DNA of 45,614 nt, taken from an uncultured bacterium (GTDB lineage: Bacteria; Patescibacteriota; Minisyncoccia; UBA9983). The position numbers were made by a program, and so were the translations under genes. The notes beneath the pieces were generated by a model, which saw only the letters and a program-made list of their open reading frames with translations, had not been told where the DNA came from and made no database searches. The stretch is taken from the NCBI GenBank assembly GCA_913009575.1, contig CAJVWH010000002.1, positions 1 to 45,614 on the forward strand. Reading direction: 5' to 3'. How positions within the stretch are numbered: position 1 is the stretch's first letter; each line of letters opens with the position of its first letter. Shown piece by piece: positions 14,389 to 32,348 of this stretch.

Positions 14389-14741
14389 ATTGCTTTCGCT
14401 TCCAAACCTGCCATTGCTTTAGGCAAAATTTCTTTGGTTTTATTTTTAATCATTATAACAATAATCACGCCTGTCCAAAAGGGCAAGGCGGCGATGACAG
14501 GAATAATCTCAGCAATTCCTCCTATAGCAAGCCACCCTCTAAAATTCTTTACTCCTTTTATTTTCAACCAAAGATAAAAAGTAAGCCACGCCCAAATACT
14601 TATAAGTCTGTTTACAATCAACCCGATTAGAACTACGTCAAGAAAAAACTGGACTCCGTCAAAAAGCAAAGCGACGCCTATCATTAATCCCCATTCAATA
14701 TTTGAAATTTTACTTTTCTCATTACTCATTGCTTTGCTCAA
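14385..14741 (-). CDS. Small multi-TM membrane protein
   Basis: Hydrophobic segments; overlaps both neighbours in the operon. Confidence 0.6.
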   Translation of the reverse strand: MSKAMSNEKSKISNIEWGLMIGVALLFDGVQFFLDVVLIGLIVNRLISIWAWLTFYLWLKIKGVKNFRGWLAIGGIAEIIPVIAALPFWTGVIIVIMIKNKTKEILPKAMAGLEAKAI

Positions 14742-16551
14742 ATTCTTCCTTTGATTTTTTAATCGCCAATAATTGCGCCGGGTCGGAAGTTATAATTTGG
14801 TCTTCGGTATAAGACGCTAAAACCTTTATCGCCACATGTTTCATTCCCGCGAAGAAAATCCCCTCACCCACATCGGATTCCAAAAGCAAAAATTTCTCTT
14901 CCTCGGTAAGATTAAAAGTCTTTTGAACCATATCTATTGATGCCGGCGACTGTTTCAAGAGAAGCTGCATAGAAGAGTTCGTTATGATGGGAAGCCCATA
15001 AGGCGAAGATAGAAAATCATTGACATTTTGAGTAATGGTAGCCAATCCCAAATAATATTTCCTGCATCTTTTGGCTATGCCAAACAGAAAAGAAGCGGTG
15101 TCTTTTGACTTCATCATCCACCAAGCTTCATCAATTACGAGAAGCCTTTTTCTTATATTTTTTCTAACGGTATTCCAAATAAAATGAGTGATAATATACA
15201 TTGCCACCGGCCGAAGTTCATCCTCCATGTCCCTCACGGAAAAAACCACAAGCTTTTTATTTATGTCAACATTGCTCGGCTGATTTAAAAAACCCGACCA
15301 TGTTCCCTTTGTATATTTACTAAGGCGTTGCGCCAAAGATTCTCCACCCTCCATACCCGCTAAAACAAGCTCTAAATCGGACAGTGTCGGAGGGGGAATG
15401 TTGGAAAAATCCGCCTCTGGAGTTATATCTCTAGCGGCATAAGTTTCAGTAATTGCTTTATCCATTATTGAATCCTCCTCGGGGGTCAAACCGCCAAGCA
15501 TCAAACGGAACAAACCAACCAAAGTAATAATATTAGAGCGCAAAACATCGGAAGGGGATTCATCTTCGCCCACGGGAGGGAGGTCAAAGGGATTAATGTG
15601 GTGTTTGGATGAAAGAGAGATGTCAAAATATCTTCCGTCAACCGCTTCGGCCAAATATCCATATTCGCGTTCTGGGTCAATAACGATCACTTCAGTATCA
15701 AACATTAAAGTTCTAAGTATTTGCAGTTTGGTTGTGTAGCTTTTTCCCGAACCGGATTTGGCGAAAATAACCGAATTATAATTTTCCAGTGAGAAGCGGT
15801 CAAACAAAACAAGGCTGTTGTTATGGCGGTTGATTCCGTAAAGAATACCGCTATCCGAAGAAAGATCAAAAGAAACAAAGGGGAATATACTGGAAAGAGG
15901 AGAAGAATTCAGGCGGCTGTGGACTTCAATCTTGTCAGTACCGAAAGGGAAGACACTTTCAATCGCTTCTTTTTGCTGAAAAAGCGCCGGCTTAACATAA
16001 ACAAGTTTTGATTCAAGAATTGATCTAATTTCCGATTCAATTTCGTTGAGTCCTTCCAAATTATTGGAATAAAGCGTAATGTACAGCCCGACGGAAAAAA
16101 GCTTTTCCTGCGCCTGCTGAAGCTGGTCCCTAAGCATCTCAAGGTCCTGATAAGCGGTATCTAAAATGGGGTCGCGTACCAATCCTTTCTCTTCCCGCAT
16201 ATGTATCTGCGATTGAACTTCGGCAACTTTCTTCTGCAGCTGACGCAACACCGTAGAAGTGTCAATGGGGTGGATAAAAATGGAAATATCAAAAATTTTA
16301 TCTAAATTAATAATGGGAGAAAACCAATTTGAAGCAAGAAAACGCGGATAAGACATCACAAAAATAGTTCTGGCGACTTTGTCACCCAAACGGATAAAAT
16401 TAGAATTTATCTGCATCGCGGAGGGAGCGATAACATCCTGTAATTCCAAAACCCCGCTCTCATAGATTTGCTGCGGAATAATCGGGGAAATTTCTTCACC
16501 CATTTCTTTATCTTTTGCTTTTTTAAGTTTTAATGCGTCTAATAAACTCAT
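14722..16551 (-). CDS. VirB4/TraC-family type IV secretion ATPase
   Basis: Walker A NSVIFAKSGSGKSYTTKLQ, Walker B KRLLVIDEAWWMM, VIVIDPEREYGYLAEAVDGRYFDI, LGLATITQNVNDFL. Confidence 0.9.
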   Translation of the reverse strand: MSLLDALKLKKAKDKEMGEEISPIIPQQIYESGVLELQDVIAPSAMQINSNFIRLGDKVARTIFVMSYPRFLASNWFSPIINLDKIFDISIFIHPIDTSTVLRQLQKKVAEVQSQIHMREEKGLVRDPILDTAYQDLEMLRDQLQQAQEKLFSVGLYITLYSNNLEGLNEIESEIRSILESKLVYVKPALFQQKEAIESVFPFGTDKIEVHSRLNSSPLSSIFPFVSFDLSSDSGILYGINRHNNSLVLFDRFSLENYNSVIFAKSGSGKSYTTKLQILRTLMFDTEVIVIDPEREYGYLAEAVDGRYFDISLSSKHHINPFDLPPVGEDESPSDVLRSNIITLVGLFRLMLGGLTPEEDSIMDKAITETYAARDITPEADFSNIPPPTLSDLELVLAGMEGGESLAQRLSKYTKGTWSGFLNQPSNVDINKKLVVFSVRDMEDELRPVAMYIITHFIWNTVRKNIRKRLLVIDEAWWMMKSKDTASFLFGIAKRCRKYYLGLATITQNVNDFLSSPYGLPIITNSSMQLLLKQSPASIDMVQKTFNLTEEEKFLLLESDVGEGIFFAGMKHVAIKVLASYTEDQIITSDPAQLLAIKKSKEEFEQSNE

Positions 16552-16557
16552 GTTATA

Positions 16558-17235
16558 TTAAGATTTTTCCCCGCCGCTTATTTGTAATTCCTGAACACTG
16601 TTTTTTTCAATCTCTCCGGGATTAAATAATTTATAAAATAATTCTATCAATTCTTCCGTATTTAACGAAACCGCCCTGATGCCGGCACTGCGTAAACCTT
16701 GGCGAACAACATCGGCTCTTTGCTGCAATTGGAGCCGCGATTCTTCAAAACTTACATCTTTACCGGAATCATTCTTCTTTCCACCTCTAAATATCTTCAT
16801 GATGGCGCCGAAAGGATTTTTTTTAATACTGGATACCGCGCTTGAAACCGGATTATAAGCGACAACTACATAAAAAGTTTTTGACATAATATTCGTTGAT
16901 TTCACGAAATTTTTTATAAAATCAATATATTCTTTTGTCTGAATTTTAAGAAGTTCGTTTGTCTGCTCCGCTTTTGCGTCCTCAAGCGTCTTTATATAAT
17001 TTCCTATATCAAGTTTCCTGGACTCAATAAAAAATTGAATGGGAAAATCAAGCGAATTAAGAAAATTTTGATATTGCATAATAATCGCACTCTGTTCATC
17101 TTCTGATTTCAAAGCAAAATTCAAGGTGGATGTCATTAAAATCATTTTCAAAGAACCATCCTTGAAAACGGCGACGCCTTCGCGAATTTCATTGATTGGA
17201 ACAATTTCCTGCGTTGATTTTGATGATATTGCCAT
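16558..17235 (-). CDS. Detached VirB4/TraC N-terminal-domain-like protein
   Basis: VPINEIREGVAVFKDGSLKMILMTSTLNFALKSEDEQSAIIMQYQNFLNSLDFPIQFFIESRKLDIGNYI, no P-loop. Confidence 0.65.
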   Translation of the reverse strand: MAISSKSTQEIVPINEIREGVAVFKDGSLKMILMTSTLNFALKSEDEQSAIIMQYQNFLNSLDFPIQFFIESRKLDIGNYIKTLEDAKAEQTNELLKIQTKEYIDFIKNFVKSTNIMSKTFYVVVAYNPVSSAVSSIKKNPFGAIMKIFRGGKKNDSGKDVSFEESRLQLQQRADVVRQGLRSAGIRAVSLNTEELIELFYKLFNPGEIEKNSVQELQISGGEKS

Positions 17236-17241
17236 ATTATT

Positions 17242-17646
17242 CTATTTTACTTCTTCTTTTATATTTAAACTCCATGCCAAATCTTTTAATTTGCTTTTAG
17301 TTAATTTTGGGGCATAAATTTGCGCAGGAGATGTAATTTGCCTTTTTTTTATCAAATTGTCTTTCTTCTCTTTTTTCTTCCATATATAAATTTTAGCATC
17401 TGACGCATAATGCAAGGCATTCTCAACCATTTTTATGAACGGTCGGTTGTTGGGTTTGTAAAAAGCAAGAGCCAAAGCAAGTGCTCCGACGGGAATGGTA
17501 AACAAAAACATCAAGAAAAAAGGCAGTATCACATACAGCAGAAAAATTATTCCCGCCCCTCCCGCCAAATAAATAAACTGTTTGAGCGTTAGAGGCCCGA
17601 ATATCTTGCTTTCTACTTCAATAAATTGTGGAACTTGAAATCTCAT
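17242..17646 (-). CDS. PrgI family (VirB3-like) protein
   Basis: MRFQVPQFIEVESKIFGPLTLKQFIYLAGGAGIIFLLYVILPFFLMFLFTIPVGALALALAFYKPNNRPFIKMVENALHY. Confidence 0.85.
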   Translation of the reverse strand: MRFQVPQFIEVESKIFGPLTLKQFIYLAGGAGIIFLLYVILPFFLMFLFTIPVGALALALAFYKPNNRPFIKMVENALHYASDAKIYIWKKKEKKDNLIKKRQITSPAQIYAPKLTKSKLKDLAWSLNIKEEVK

Positions 17647-18257
17647 TATTTTATCGGCTCTTGATAAGGATCGCCTTCCAGATAGTGTTCTGAAACCTGA
17701 AGCGGTTTTCTGTGAATTTCTTCGCTTGTCTTCGCTTCAAACGGACCTTTTTCCGGTTCGGGAATATTTAACCCTTTCAATATCTCCGGAACATTTGACT
17801 TTTCATCTTTATTAATTTCTTCGCTTTCAATTTCTTTAAGCATATCTTTTTTAATTTCAGTTTTTGCGCCTCCTAATTCGTAATTCCCGGTTTCCACCTG
17901 TCCGGCAGCAAAATCATTTTGCTCCGAAGTCCCTGTTATATTATGTATTTTTTTTAATGACTCTCTTACCTTGGCAAAAATCTGCTTATTTATATCTTCG
18001 GCAATCTTGCGCGCAGTTTCCCTGTCACCTCCGAGTCTACGGGAAAGGTTGGAAATAAAATCTTTGGGAGGAGTCACGCCAAACATTACCATTCCGGTCT
18101 CATCAGCCAACTCGCCGATTTTATCAATCATTAAGTTATATTTTTTCCCTACCTGCTGAATAACATTCGCTGAATCAACGCTTAAAATCGCATCTTTCAG
18201 ATCTTCAGGAAGTTTTTGGTAAATTTCTCTTGTTTGTTGCGGTGTTAATTTTGACAT
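17646..18257 (-). CDS. Hypothetical protein, paralogous to the next upstream gene
   Basis: QKLPEDLKDAILSVDSANVIQQVGKKYNLMIDKIGELADETGMVMFGVTPPKDFISNLSRRLG...IFAKVRESL aligns with 18280-18675. Confidence 0.65.
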   Translation of the reverse strand: MSKLTPQQTREIYQKLPEDLKDAILSVDSANVIQQVGKKYNLMIDKIGELADETGMVMFGVTPPKDFISNLSRRLGGDRETARKIAEDINKQIFAKVRESLKKIHNITGTSEQNDFAAGQVETGNYELGGAKTEIKKDMLKEIESEEINKDEKSNVPEILKGLNIPEPEKGPFEAKTSEEIHRKPLQVSEHYLEGDPYQEPIK

Positions 18258-18684: not shown

Positions 18685-20553
18685 TTACGCCTTTTCCGTT
18701 TTGGGTGCGAGTTTCGGCGCTTCTCCTCCGCCGCCGGATTGCGCTTTCTTTATAAGTTTTTGCGCCTCTCCTATAATAGCATTTTCTTTTTTCTTATTTA
18801 ACTTACTGTTAATTCCATTAATCTTATCATACGTGGATTTCATAAATTCCGCCATTTCATTGTCTAATTTTTCCATTTCACGCTCCCAACTCCCGGGACT
18901 CCCATATTCAAGTTTGTTTGTTTTTTTATGTACTTCAATCTTGTCTTGAATCTTTTTCCTCCCTTCATCCCAATTTTCGGATTTTTCCCTTAGTTTTAAC
19001 CCTTTCCTTTCATTCTTAAGTTTTTTAATCTCTACTTTTTCCTTGTCTGCCTTCTGTTTACCTTCAAGTTTTTCCTCTATAACCTCGCGCCTTGACGGCA
19101 TAATCATTCGTTGCGCCTGCAAAGCCGCCAATCCCGCCGTGCTGTAAGACCCGTAAACTTTCTCGCGCCTTTTTTTCGTTTCCGCTTTTTGTTTCTCTCT
19201 CCAAGAAGACGCCCTAGCCGCGCCCTGAGCCGCGCCCGGAATCTTCAAGGCGGCCCTGAGCGCGACTGCCGTTTTACCCTTATTCTTGAAATTACCCTTT
19301 TCATCGGTGCCATAGGCATGGTTCAACGCCTTTTCAGAAGCAAAACCGACCCCCCTTCTTCCAATCCTTCCCGCATAACTTTGGCCCCACTTGCGGGCGT
19401 TAGTCCCCAATTTCTGCATTGCACCCGCGCCGTGAGCACCCATTTTACCGGCTATTATCAAACAAGCAACTAATAAAACCGCCAGTATTGAAAATTGCAT
19501 AATCACAACGGCAATACTCTTGAAAAAACTCACAATGCCGCCGGCAACACCCCCGCTAGAAGATGCTGACGTTGATAAAGTAGCTGCCAAGGAAGCCAAA
19601 AACCCTTCCCCTCCGGAAGGACCGACAATAAGCATCGCCACAAGATAAAATAAAAACAAAAATATGGGGGCGAAAAAGGATTGGCTGAACAATTTACCCC
19701 ACCATTCTTTCGCGTATCTTCCGGTGCTTGGCAAAATCATCGCTAAAAAGGCCAGAGGCGCCAAAATCATAATCAGCCAAAGTGCAACGATACGAACTAT
19801 AAACAAAATAGCCGCGGCAAAAAGCACAAAAGCGGCAATCACGTTTATTATGGATGCGACGAGAAATATTATAAATATAACCAAAAGAGAGCCGTTGCCT
19901 CCAACCACCCATTTTTGAAAAGAATCTTGGCTTAACAGGCGCTGCGGGTTAAAGCCGCTGATAAATACGGCGGAAACTCCCTTTACCTGCACTCCTCCAA
20001 CTGTCACGGCGCTTTCCTGCGGCGCGGATATTTTGCTGTAAAATTCCATCGCTAAGACATTTGACGCGTCAATGACCACTCTTGTAAACACCAAACTAAA
20101 ATTCACCAATAAAGCAACAATAATAACTTTTACCAATAAATCTTTCATACCGTATCCGCCAATTTGCAGAATGGTGGCAATGGATATGTAAAGCAATATA
20201 AAAATAAAAAACAGATTTACCAGATTACGTGTGATTTTCCACCCTTCTTTCACCATATTTGTGTTGAGGGTTTTTGAATCCAGGGCAAAAGAAACGGAAA
20301 CATCCAATATTTGCCCTGAAAACCACAGAAGCGCTGATGTTGGGACAAAGAAAATATAATAAGAAAGCGTAGCGGCACAAGCTGGGAGGTGTATTCTACC
20401 GGGAAAAGAGAGGCAATTGGTCTTGTCAAGCTGGCTTTCAATACTGCCTGAAGAGACGGCTGTGGGGGTAGAGGCGGCAAAAGTGCCCAAAGGAGCCAGC
20501 ACGTTTACGGCAAAAATCACAGTTATTAAAATATAAGGTAAAAATTTCCGCAT
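18685..20553 (-). CDS. VirB6/TrbL-like polytopic membrane protein with long charged C-terminal tail
   Basis: Multiple TM segments incl. VNLFFIFILLYISIATILQIGGYGMKDLLVKVIIVALLVNFSLVFTRVVIDASNVLAMEFY; ALWLIMILAPLAFLAMILPSTGRYAKEWW. Confidence 0.75.
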   Translation of the reverse strand: MRKFLPYILITVIFAVNVLAPLGTFAASTPTAVSSGSIESQLDKTNCLSFPGRIHLPACAATLSYYIFFVPTSALLWFSGQILDVSVSFALDSKTLNTNMVKEGWKITRNLVNLFFIFILLYISIATILQIGGYGMKDLLVKVIIVALLVNFSLVFTRVVIDASNVLAMEFYSKISAPQESAVTVGGVQVKGVSAVFISGFNPQRLLSQDSFQKWVVGGNGSLLVIFIIFLVASIINVIAAFVLFAAAILFIVRIVALWLIMILAPLAFLAMILPSTGRYAKEWWGKLFSQSFFAPIFLFLFYLVAMLIVGPSGGEGFLASLAATLSTSASSSGGVAGGIVSFFKSIAVVIMQFSILAVLLVACLIIAGKMGAHGAGAMQKLGTNARKWGQSYAGRIGRRGVGFASEKALNHAYGTDEKGNFKNKGKTAVALRAALKIPGAAQGAARASSWREKQKAETKKRREKVYGSYSTAGLAALQAQRMIMPSRREVIEEKLEGKQKADKEKVEIKKLKNERKGLKLREKSENWDEGRKKIQDKIEVHKKTNKLEYGSPGSWEREMEKLDNEMAEFMKSTYDKINGINSKLNKKKENAIIGEAQKLIKKAQSGGGGEAPKLAPKTEKA

Positions 20554-20562
20554 AAAAACAAC

Positions 20563-22140
20563 TTAATCACTGTTTTGTAAATTGCTCAAATCAGTATTGC
20601 ATTGCCCGATCTGCTCTTCTATCCCGCCTGTTCCATTAATTTTATCTTCAAGATTTTGTTTAACCACAAAATATTCGTCCAGTGCGTTGTTTGCATCTTG
20701 CGGACTATGTAGGGATGACCCGCTACCGTTGGTAAAGTCTGTCATAGCTTTTTGTAGATCTACCAACGTAACAGCGCTTGATATAATGTTCTTATCCTCT
20801 TCACCTTTATTTATCATTAAAGTGGAAATTGCAACAGCGGCGACAAATGGAGCTTTTTCAGATTCAAGAGAATCTATTAAGGGTTGCGTTTCATTGTCTA
20901 TTTTTGTCCGGAGAGCATCCGCCTGCAGGGCTTCGTTTTGGCAAGATAAAGAATCCGCGGGCGTGCAACTTTTAAGAATTGTAATTTGGTCCTCATAACA
21001 TTGCTTTAATTCGTTTACTTTTCCTATGGCCCAATCATATTTATCAACAGATTTTTGTTCGGCATCCCTAAAATTAATTTCTGGCGTGAGTTTGCGGTCA
21101 ATTATATTTTTTGCACTCTGTTTCATCTCTGATGTAACTTCCGGAACTGAAGCAACTGAATCGTAACTTGATCCACCATCCCTAAGATTAGACATATAAT
21201 GATTAATTAAAGCGACAATAATCTCGTCAAGTTCATCGGCAACACCGAGAGTCTTCACATCCTGACCTAAAACCGATTCAAGGCGACCCTCTATTACCTT
21301 GCCGGGTGTCGTATTTTGCATCTGCCCGCCGGTCCCTTCGCAAATTGTTTCCGCGGGAATATTCGTCGCGTTACAATTAGAGACACAACTGTCATGGTCG
21401 GCAGAGGATGCATTACTGCATTGCAATTGGCAAAAATCATTTTTGTCCGCCGAAGAATCATAACATTTTTTCATGCTTAAAAATCCCTGACCTGAAAGAA
21501 TTTCCTGCTTGCCCAAACTGACCTTGGTACTCACTCTGGCGCTCATTTCATCTGTCGCCATAAAATAAGCGCCATAAGGATTGTTTTGCGGTTCCAGAGT
21601 CGCTGACAGCCAATTGTTCCATCCGCCATTGTTAAAATTCCCCATAAAATTATCCCAATTGGCAACAGCATCTTTAAAGGTGCAGCTGAATTTTTTCAAT
21701 GCGGGGGCGGCAAAATTATATCTTAAACTGAACAAAATTTGTGCCTTAAAAGGCGAGCAAATATCTTCAAGTCCCAACTGTTGCATAAAAAGGCCTGATG
21801 TTTGATTCGCTAAACCCTCAAAATAAGTTTTCGGATTGGTAACAAACGCAGGATTTCCGTTAAATCCTGAATTTATCCAATTAACCAAATCATCCGTTAT
21901 GCTCTGAATCATCGCCTTGGCGAAATACCAGGCAAGAGGGTCAAGGATATTCTCCTTTGTCCATGAATCCCCTTGCATATAAGAATTATAAACATTTTCA
22001 ACCCAGTTTGTCGGATCAAAACTTATATCCTCAACCCCCCACCATGCATCGGCACGCTTTGCCGGCAAAAAGAAAAAACTGGAAGATAATGCTAACGTTA
22101 TAAAAATTACAATTATGTATTTTTTATAAAAATTACCCAT
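20563..22140 (-). CDS. Secreted Cys-containing protein of the T4SS-like block
   Basis: Signal peptide (IVIFITLALSSSFFFLPAKRADA), large helical extracellular region, Cys cluster CQLQCSNASSADHDSCVSNC. Confidence 0.55.
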   Translation of the reverse strand: MGNFYKKYIIVIFITLALSSSFFFLPAKRADAWWGVEDISFDPTNWVENVYNSYMQGDSWTKENILDPLAWYFAKAMIQSITDDLVNWINSGFNGNPAFVTNPKTYFEGLANQTSGLFMQQLGLEDICSPFKAQILFSLRYNFAAPALKKFSCTFKDAVANWDNFMGNFNNGGWNNWLSATLEPQNNPYGAYFMATDEMSARVSTKVSLGKQEILSGQGFLSMKKCYDSSADKNDFCQLQCSNASSADHDSCVSNCNATNIPAETICEGTGGQMQNTTPGKVIEGRLESVLGQDVKTLGVADELDEIIVALINHYMSNLRDGGSSYDSVASVPEVTSEMKQSAKNIIDRKLTPEINFRDAEQKSVDKYDWAIGKVNELKQCYEDQITILKSCTPADSLSCQNEALQADALRTKIDNETQPLIDSLESEKAPFVAAVAISTLMINKGEEDKNIISSAVTLVDLQKAMTDFTNGSGSSLHSPQDANNALDEYFVVKQNLEDKINGTGGIEEQIGQCNTDLSNLQNSD

Positions 22141-31032: not shown

Positions 31033-31581
31033 ATGACAAAAATCAACTTGGAAACATTTTTGAGTTTTGGAAGGAAGGTTATTCCGAAAAAACTTTTTAG
31101 GATGGGGCAGCCGGTTTACCATTGGCTGTTGGCTTTTGCGGCCGCTTTGATTTATCGCTTCCCGTCGCGGAAAATATTCGTGCTTGGCATTACCGGCACC
31201 AAGGGAAAAACCAGCGTCATAGAAATCATCAGCGCCATTCTTGAGGAAGCCGGATACAAGACCGCCCTCGCCTCTTCCCTGCGCTTCAAAATCGGCAGGG
31301 AATCGGAAAAAAACGAGAAAAAGATGACCATGCCGGGCAGATTTTTCATGCAAAGATTCTTGCGCAAAGCGGTGAGGGGAAAATGCCAATACGCTATTTT
31401 GGAGCTCACTTCCGAGGGCGCCGCCCAAAGCCGTCACAGATTCGTCAATTTCAACGCGCTCATTTTCACCAATCTGGCGCCTGAGCACATTGAATCGCAC
31501 GGCTCTTTTGAAAAATACCGCGACGCCAAATTAAAGCTTTTTAAGTCGCTGGAAAATCCCCCAAAAAAGGAAAAATTATAA
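31033..31581 (+). CDS. Mur ligase (MurE-like) N-terminal part; ORF ends at a frame disruption
   Basis: FVLGITGTKGKTSVIEIISAIL, ELTSEGAAQSRHRFVNFNALIFTNLAPEHIESHGSFEKYRDAKLKLFKSLENPPKKEKL*. Confidence 0.85.
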   Translation: MTKINLETFLSFGRKVIPKKLFRMGQPVYHWLLAFAAALIYRFPSRKIFVLGITGTKGKTSVIEIISAILEEAGYKTALASSLRFKIGRESEKNEKKMTMPGRFFMQRFLRKAVRGKCQYAILELTSEGAAQSRHRFVNFNALIFTNLAPEHIESHGSFEKYRDAKLKLFKSLENPPKKEKL

Positions 31582-31583
31582 TT

Positions 31584-32348
31584 GTGAACGAAGATGACCC
31601 CAACGCCGAACTCTTTTTAAATTTTAACGTTGAAGAAAAAATAAAATACGGACTGAAAGATGTTTCTTCCCGCAGTCTTACTGAAGACGGCATGGATTTT
31701 ATAATTGACAATGTTTCCATTCATTCAAAAGTCGCCGGCGAATTTAATTTATATAATATTCTTGCCGCGATTGTTTTTGCCAAATCGCAGGGAGTGGAAA
31801 TGGGAGCGATAAAATCCGCCATTGAAAAATTCAGAGGAGTTGAAGGAAGGGTGGAAAAAATAGACGAAGGCCAAGATTTTAAAGTGGTAGTTGATTACGC
31901 CCACACGCCGGATTCATTGGAGAAAGTTTATGAAACTTTTCGGGGTTCGCGGAAAATCTGCGTGCTCGGTTCGGCGGGCGGCGGGCGGGACAAATGGAAG
32001 CGGCTGGAAATGGGAAAAATTGCCTCTAAACATTGCGACAAAATTATTCTCACCAATGAAGACCCTTATGATGAAAATCCCCGCGCCATTGTGGAAGATG
32101 TCGCCAAGGGGATCGACCAGCCGATTTGTGAAACAATAATGGACAGGCGCGAGGCGATCGCAAAAGCCGTATCGCTCGCAAAAACCGGCGACACGGTCAT
32201 CATCACCGGCAAGGGCGCCGAGCCATGGATGATGGGTCCGAAGGGAACAAAAATAAAATGGGATGACCGCGAAGTAGCGCGAGGAGAGTTAAAAAATTTT
32301 AGAGAAAAAATAATCTCTACGAAATCTCATATTTTGTTGGAGCGATAA
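31584..32348 (+). CDS. Mur ligase (MurE-like) C-terminal part in the -1 frame
   Basis: NEDDPNAELFLNFNVEEK, GEFNLYNILAAIVFAKSQG, VVVDYAHTPDSLEKVYETFR, CVLGSAGGGRDKWKRLEMGKIA, ITNEDPYDENP; continuous with 31033-31581 after a -1 shift. Confidence 0.85.
   Translation: MNEDDPNAELFLNFNVEEKIKYGLKDVSSRSLTEDGMDFIIDNVSIHSKVAGEFNLYNILAAIVFAKSQGVEMGAIKSAIEKFRGVEGRVEKIDEGQDFKVVVDYAHTPDSLEKVYETFRGSRKICVLGSAGGGRDKWKRLEMGKIASKHCDKIILTNEDPYDENPRAIVEDVAKGIDQPICETIMDRREAIAKAVSLAKTGDTVIITGKGAEPWMMGPKGTKIKWDDREVARGELKNFREKIISTKSHILLER

Follow-up and report, generated by a model that had tools for sequence, protein, structure and literature searches.

A slippery heptamer at a frame break in a Patescibacteria murE gene: a probable one-base lesion or assembly error rather than programmed frameshifting

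The MurE-like gene at 31033-32348 (+) of the stretch of DNA analysed here (the window: 45,614 nucleotides, contig 2 of 39 in a genome of 652 kb that is 94.6% complete) passes from frame 0 into frame -1 at 31558-31590, where a slippery A_AAA_AAG heptamer lies in phase. This raises the question of whether ribosomes slip there to make the enzyme, or whether the gene, or its assembled sequence, has lost a base. Programmed -1 ribosomal frameshifting of the dnaX type combines A_AAA_AAG with an upstream Shine-Dalgarno (SD) sequence and a downstream stem-loop; the first-pass annotation of the window had offered such frameshifting and a one-base deletion as alternatives. The comparison with relatives described below leads us to put at about 90% the probability that the break is an ordinary lesion or artefact: a one-base assembly or consensus error, or else a polymorphism between strains or a recent indel. 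The frame break is present in the sequence but of low interest, and a programmed reading of it is not supported.

The two reading frames together make up one Mur ligase (Table 1). Frame 0, read from the ATG at 31033, encodes the P-loop GTKGKT and a YRDAK motif and ends ...CTG GAA AAT CCC CCA AAA AAG GAA AAA TTA TAA; the -1 segment covers the end of the central domain plus the C-terminal ligase domain. In Pfam terms the break cuts Mur_ligase_M: the first ORF matches profile positions 1-115, and the second matches 118-199 as well as Mur_ligase_C. The top NCBIfam models for both parts are MurE (TIGR01085 and NF001126), each part alone scoring below the full-length cut-off. The sequence, the ORFs and Pfam thus agree with the first-pass annotation that a Mur ligase is split at an in-phase A_AAA_AAG, that the heptamer has the X_XXY_YYZ phase with a stop close behind it, and that the -1 frame, open from 31569, continues to 32348; the A run, which that annotation counted as five, has six residues (31563-31568).

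Table 1. Positions of the features at the murE frame break, in window coordinates.
Feature	Position	Strand	Basis
Frame-0 ORF, N-terminal 182 aa of the MurE-like Mur ligase, stop TAA 31579-31581	31033..31581	+	ORF, Pfam, NCBIfam
Likeliest site of a one-base frame loss, GAAAAT	31552..31557	+	HMM crossover at 31554; Ser column
Frame -1 segment, with homology to the remainder of MurE	31554..32348	+	ORF, Pfam, NCBIfam, HMM crossover
A_AAA_AAG heptamer	31563..31569	+	slippery phase relative to the broken frame 0 only
GTG, in principle a candidate for re-initiation	31584..31586	+	sequence

A complete N-terminal Mur ligase domain is missing, the MurE match starting at profile position 70 of 472. MurE-like relatives have comparable lengths (mostly about 400-450 aa), so an incomplete N-terminal domain appears to be usual for the group, whose MurE-like proteins lack most of this UDP-binding domain (window 31033-31190). 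The P-loop of the window protein lies at about residue 53, after a hydrophobic stretch, YHWLLAFAAALIYRF.

The closest public relatives of the genome are Parcubacteria-type Patescibacteria. About 100 usable relatives of the gene came from 55 related genomes that were searched and from 84,980 species genomes that were scanned. Wherever the assemblies of those 55 genomes span the break site, the gene that matches is one open frame; among the approximately 100 relative genes, the N- and C-terminal parts share one frame in one gene, the only exceptions being the window's own copies. No break is present at the site in the nearest relatives, which share 69-75% identity with the window gene over its length, and some of their assemblies stop further on within the gene. 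The first-pass annotation had proposed checking sister genomes for the same break, and had named orthologues with an intact single frame as evidence against its reading; about 100 relatives are of this intact kind and none shares the break. Among the 40 closest relatives, A_AAA_AAG was seen at the corresponding site in one alone (L010), where the sequence reads CGA AAA AAG AGG and the gene is intact. Neither the break, among about 100 relatives, nor the heptamer, among the 40 closest, is conserved in orthologues.

In one related genome (G006), the assembly itself forks inside murE (L014 2278-2418, L073 1-141, L087 1-141): a single N-terminal contig shares exactly 141 identical bases with each of two C-terminal contigs, and these two share 91% identity. 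The pattern suggests two strains and a k=141 assembly graph, and murE is accordingly a site at which an assembly of the group broke. The same murE contains, in frame, a hairpin-like sequence, CCTCGACTTCGCTCGG (L014 2334-2349; L073 and L087 57-72), in the loop before VDYAHTPDSL; neither the window nor any other locus compared has it.

The position at which the homologous frame changes bears directly on the role of the heptamer. We scored each possible switch point against family HMMs built from all relatives (100) or close relatives (10). The best crossover falls after the codon at 31552-31554, between LE and KS, with 690.0 bits for the all-relatives profile and 799.3 bits for the close-relatives profile, compared with 686.5 and 794.7 bits for a crossover at the heptamer, a small gap of 3.5 to 4.6 bits. 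Frame 0 agrees with the family through LE (31549-31554), and frame -1 agrees from 31554 onwards (KSPKKGKIIIV). Close relatives read approximately LEKS-x-x-K-x-K-I-I-I-V-N-E-D-D, where frame 0 of the window reads LENPPKK; in frame -1 the window gives KSPKKGKIIIVNEDD, in agreement with LEKS..K.KIIIVNEDD in the nearest relatives. The column after LE-x is serine in 49 of the 52 relatives with the same linker length and proline in none, and the window has proline there by frame 0 and serine by frame -1. Given that this serine is encoded by frame -1 at 31554-31559, the homologous frame is already -1 upstream of the heptamer.

The lesion is therefore most likely the absence of one base within or next to the A run at 31553-31556, a placement that draws mainly on a single nearly invariant serine and a few HMM bits, both of which point to the same site. 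A lesion within the A run of the heptamer scores below the upstream lesion and leaves proline where relatives show serine; a two-base insertion in place of a one-base loss scores lower at every position. Of the one-base deletion proposed in the first-pass annotation, the deletion or assembly error itself stands, and its site moves upstream from the heptamer to 31553-31556.

How, then, does a phased slippery heptamer come to lie next to the break? The linker at this site is Lys-rich across the MurE family, and in the homologous frame the heptamer is AAA AAA G, that is, Lys-Lys; only in frame 0 is it read through the codons AAA (31564-31566) and AAG (31567-31569). The window contains 70 copies of AAAAAAG where chance predicts 58 +/- 7, so the heptamer as such is common, and its phases in coding sequence are AAA AAA G in 30 cases, the second phase in 12 and A AAA AAG in 4, the last being rare at 4 in 13,745 codons. 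Loss of a base upstream turns AAA AAA G into A AAA AAG, so the slippery phase follows automatically; the rare in-phase form is then a consequence of the frame break itself, and selection is not needed to explain it. A stop shortly after the heptamer is unsurprising in a stretch that is out of frame and AT-rich. We infer the following sequence of events: a single-frame murE of a Parcubacteria-type genome would have lost one base from the short A run at 31553-31556 or from a position adjoining it; the shifted frame would then cross the downstream Lys-Lys codons, giving the look of an A_AAA_AAG slip site, and would reach a stop about 25 bases past the lesion.

The readings in which the break is functional (programmed or corrective frameshifting, a split enzyme and transcriptional slippage) are improbable even when taken jointly. 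Frameshifting by -1 on A_AAA_AAG, programmed or corrective, would yield the 182-aa short form together with full-length MurE, and it has in its favour the correct phase of the heptamer, a -1 frame that stays open until the gene ends, the scarcity of the in-phase motif in the coding sequence of the window and the high rank of A_AAA_AAG among shift-prone heptamers in E. coli (PMC4066793). The best such heptamers, however, reach only about 0.3% frameshifting in E. coli when stimulators are lacking (PMC4066793), and stimulators are lacking here, as the first-pass annotation had itself observed: pseudoknot-free folding of four segments at or after the heptamer gave structures no better than those of shuffled sequences (z-scores of +0.66 to +1.91, weaker than shuffles), and inspection of the sequence before the heptamer found nothing more SD-like than GGA, inside CTGGAAAATCCCCC. 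The genome also encodes tRNA-Lys(CUU) beside tRNA-Lys(UUU), and the CUU isoacceptor is expected to lower slippage on AAG without precluding such motifs (PMC4066793). The short form would equal half an ATPase domain; no relative is split, the one relative with the heptamer at this place being unbroken; and family agreement with frame 0 is lost before the heptamer is reached. The locus thus resembles dnaX-type systems in heptamer sequence, in phase relative to the 0 frame and in the nearby stop, but differs from them in having no conservation, stem-loop or SD, in a homologous frame that switches upstream of the heptamer and in the gene concerned, murE. Uniqueness, crossover position, missing stimulator and missing conservation together lead us to reject the programmed frameshifting put forward in the first-pass annotation, and -1 frameshifting in general is very unlikely. 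Slippage may still supply a trace of full-length protein, and nothing suggests a programme; that a real indel in the only copy of murE is tolerated through low-level corrective -1 slippage at the adjacent heptamer is a shade less probable still.

A truly split MurE, made as two polypeptides that reassemble, the second re-initiated at the GTG, would be aided by the position of that codon 2 nt past the stop and by AAGGA (31567-31571) 12 nt upstream of it. The break, however, lies inside the central ATPase domain (between Mur_ligase_M positions 115 and 118), a start at the GTG would omit the KIII segment, and the split form occurs in no relative. Of the re-initiation suggested in the first-pass annotation, the GTG and its upstream AAGGA are real, and the omitted KIII and unsplit relatives make a split enzyme highly improbable. 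Transcriptional slippage on the A runs, restoring the frame in part of the mRNA, is the least probable of all. Precedents come from reduced genomes in which poly(A) runs are long: a review cites insect endosymbionts whose frameshifted cell-wall genes are reported to be rescued in this way (PMC5009743). The window murE is like those genes in its reduced genome, its cell-wall function and its one-base break near A runs. Its runs, however, are just A4 and A6, far shorter than the runs of 9 or the long poly(A) tracts of the bacterial slippage cited in that review (PMC5009743); there is no sign of rescue; and the source here is an environmental Patescibacteria metagenome assembly.

We return to an error or a recent mutation. 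Both halves of the gene show differences weighted towards third codon positions, the window branch carries no surplus of changes, and murE contains no second lesion. Such coding-like evolution gives no sign of an old pseudogene, a reading that we reject on these observations. In the window, no other split gene with a recognisable domain was seen. A second, intact murE was not found elsewhere in the genome, so the split copy is the only one detected. The absence of a second lesion and of other split genes in the window, together with the single murE, is consistent with an assembly error, or with an indel that arose very recently. The genome also has murF, murG, mraY and a transpeptidase gene; given these and a sole murE, a true knockout would be costly, which favours an error or residual expression. 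Between the two, we infer that an assembly or consensus error is somewhat the likelier, at a little better than even odds, and that a recent indel or strain polymorphism inactivating or lowering MurE is a substantial but lesser possibility.

A similar class of breaks is known from the GeneTack survey, in which singleton frame breaks with BLASTp and Pfam support were regarded as probably due to sequencing errors or indel mutations (PMC3711429). The window murE belongs with these: its break occurs in one genome, with homology and Pfam matches on both sides and no conserved frameshift site. It differs from them in having A_AAA_AAG a few bases past the lesion.

Several other features of the genome may be recorded here. 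Besides this MurE, searches with the middle and C-terminal domains found just one other Mur ligase, a MurF-like protein on contig 29; MurC and MurD were not seen by these searches in the 94.6% complete genome. The bin holds a full rpoC (contig 9, 4551-8081; L149) and a second, partial one (contig 30, 432-1289; L150) with no detectable nucleotide similarity to it, which suggests that the small contig is a stray from another organism. On the minus strand of the window, 14722-18257 carries type IV secretion system-like genes (a TraG/VirB4-type ATPase, a TraC-like protein and PrgI), and after this run lie large proteins at 18685-22140 with no Pfam match.

Programmed frameshifting here, if true, would make murE a newly recognised recoded gene of the cell wall. 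As matters stand, the lesson of this locus is methodological: a base lost before a Lys-Lys pair encoded as AAA AAA G mimics a phased dnaX-type heptamer with a near stop, and, where such heptamers lie beside frame breaks in A-rich genomes, the point at which the homologous frame switches needs to be checked.
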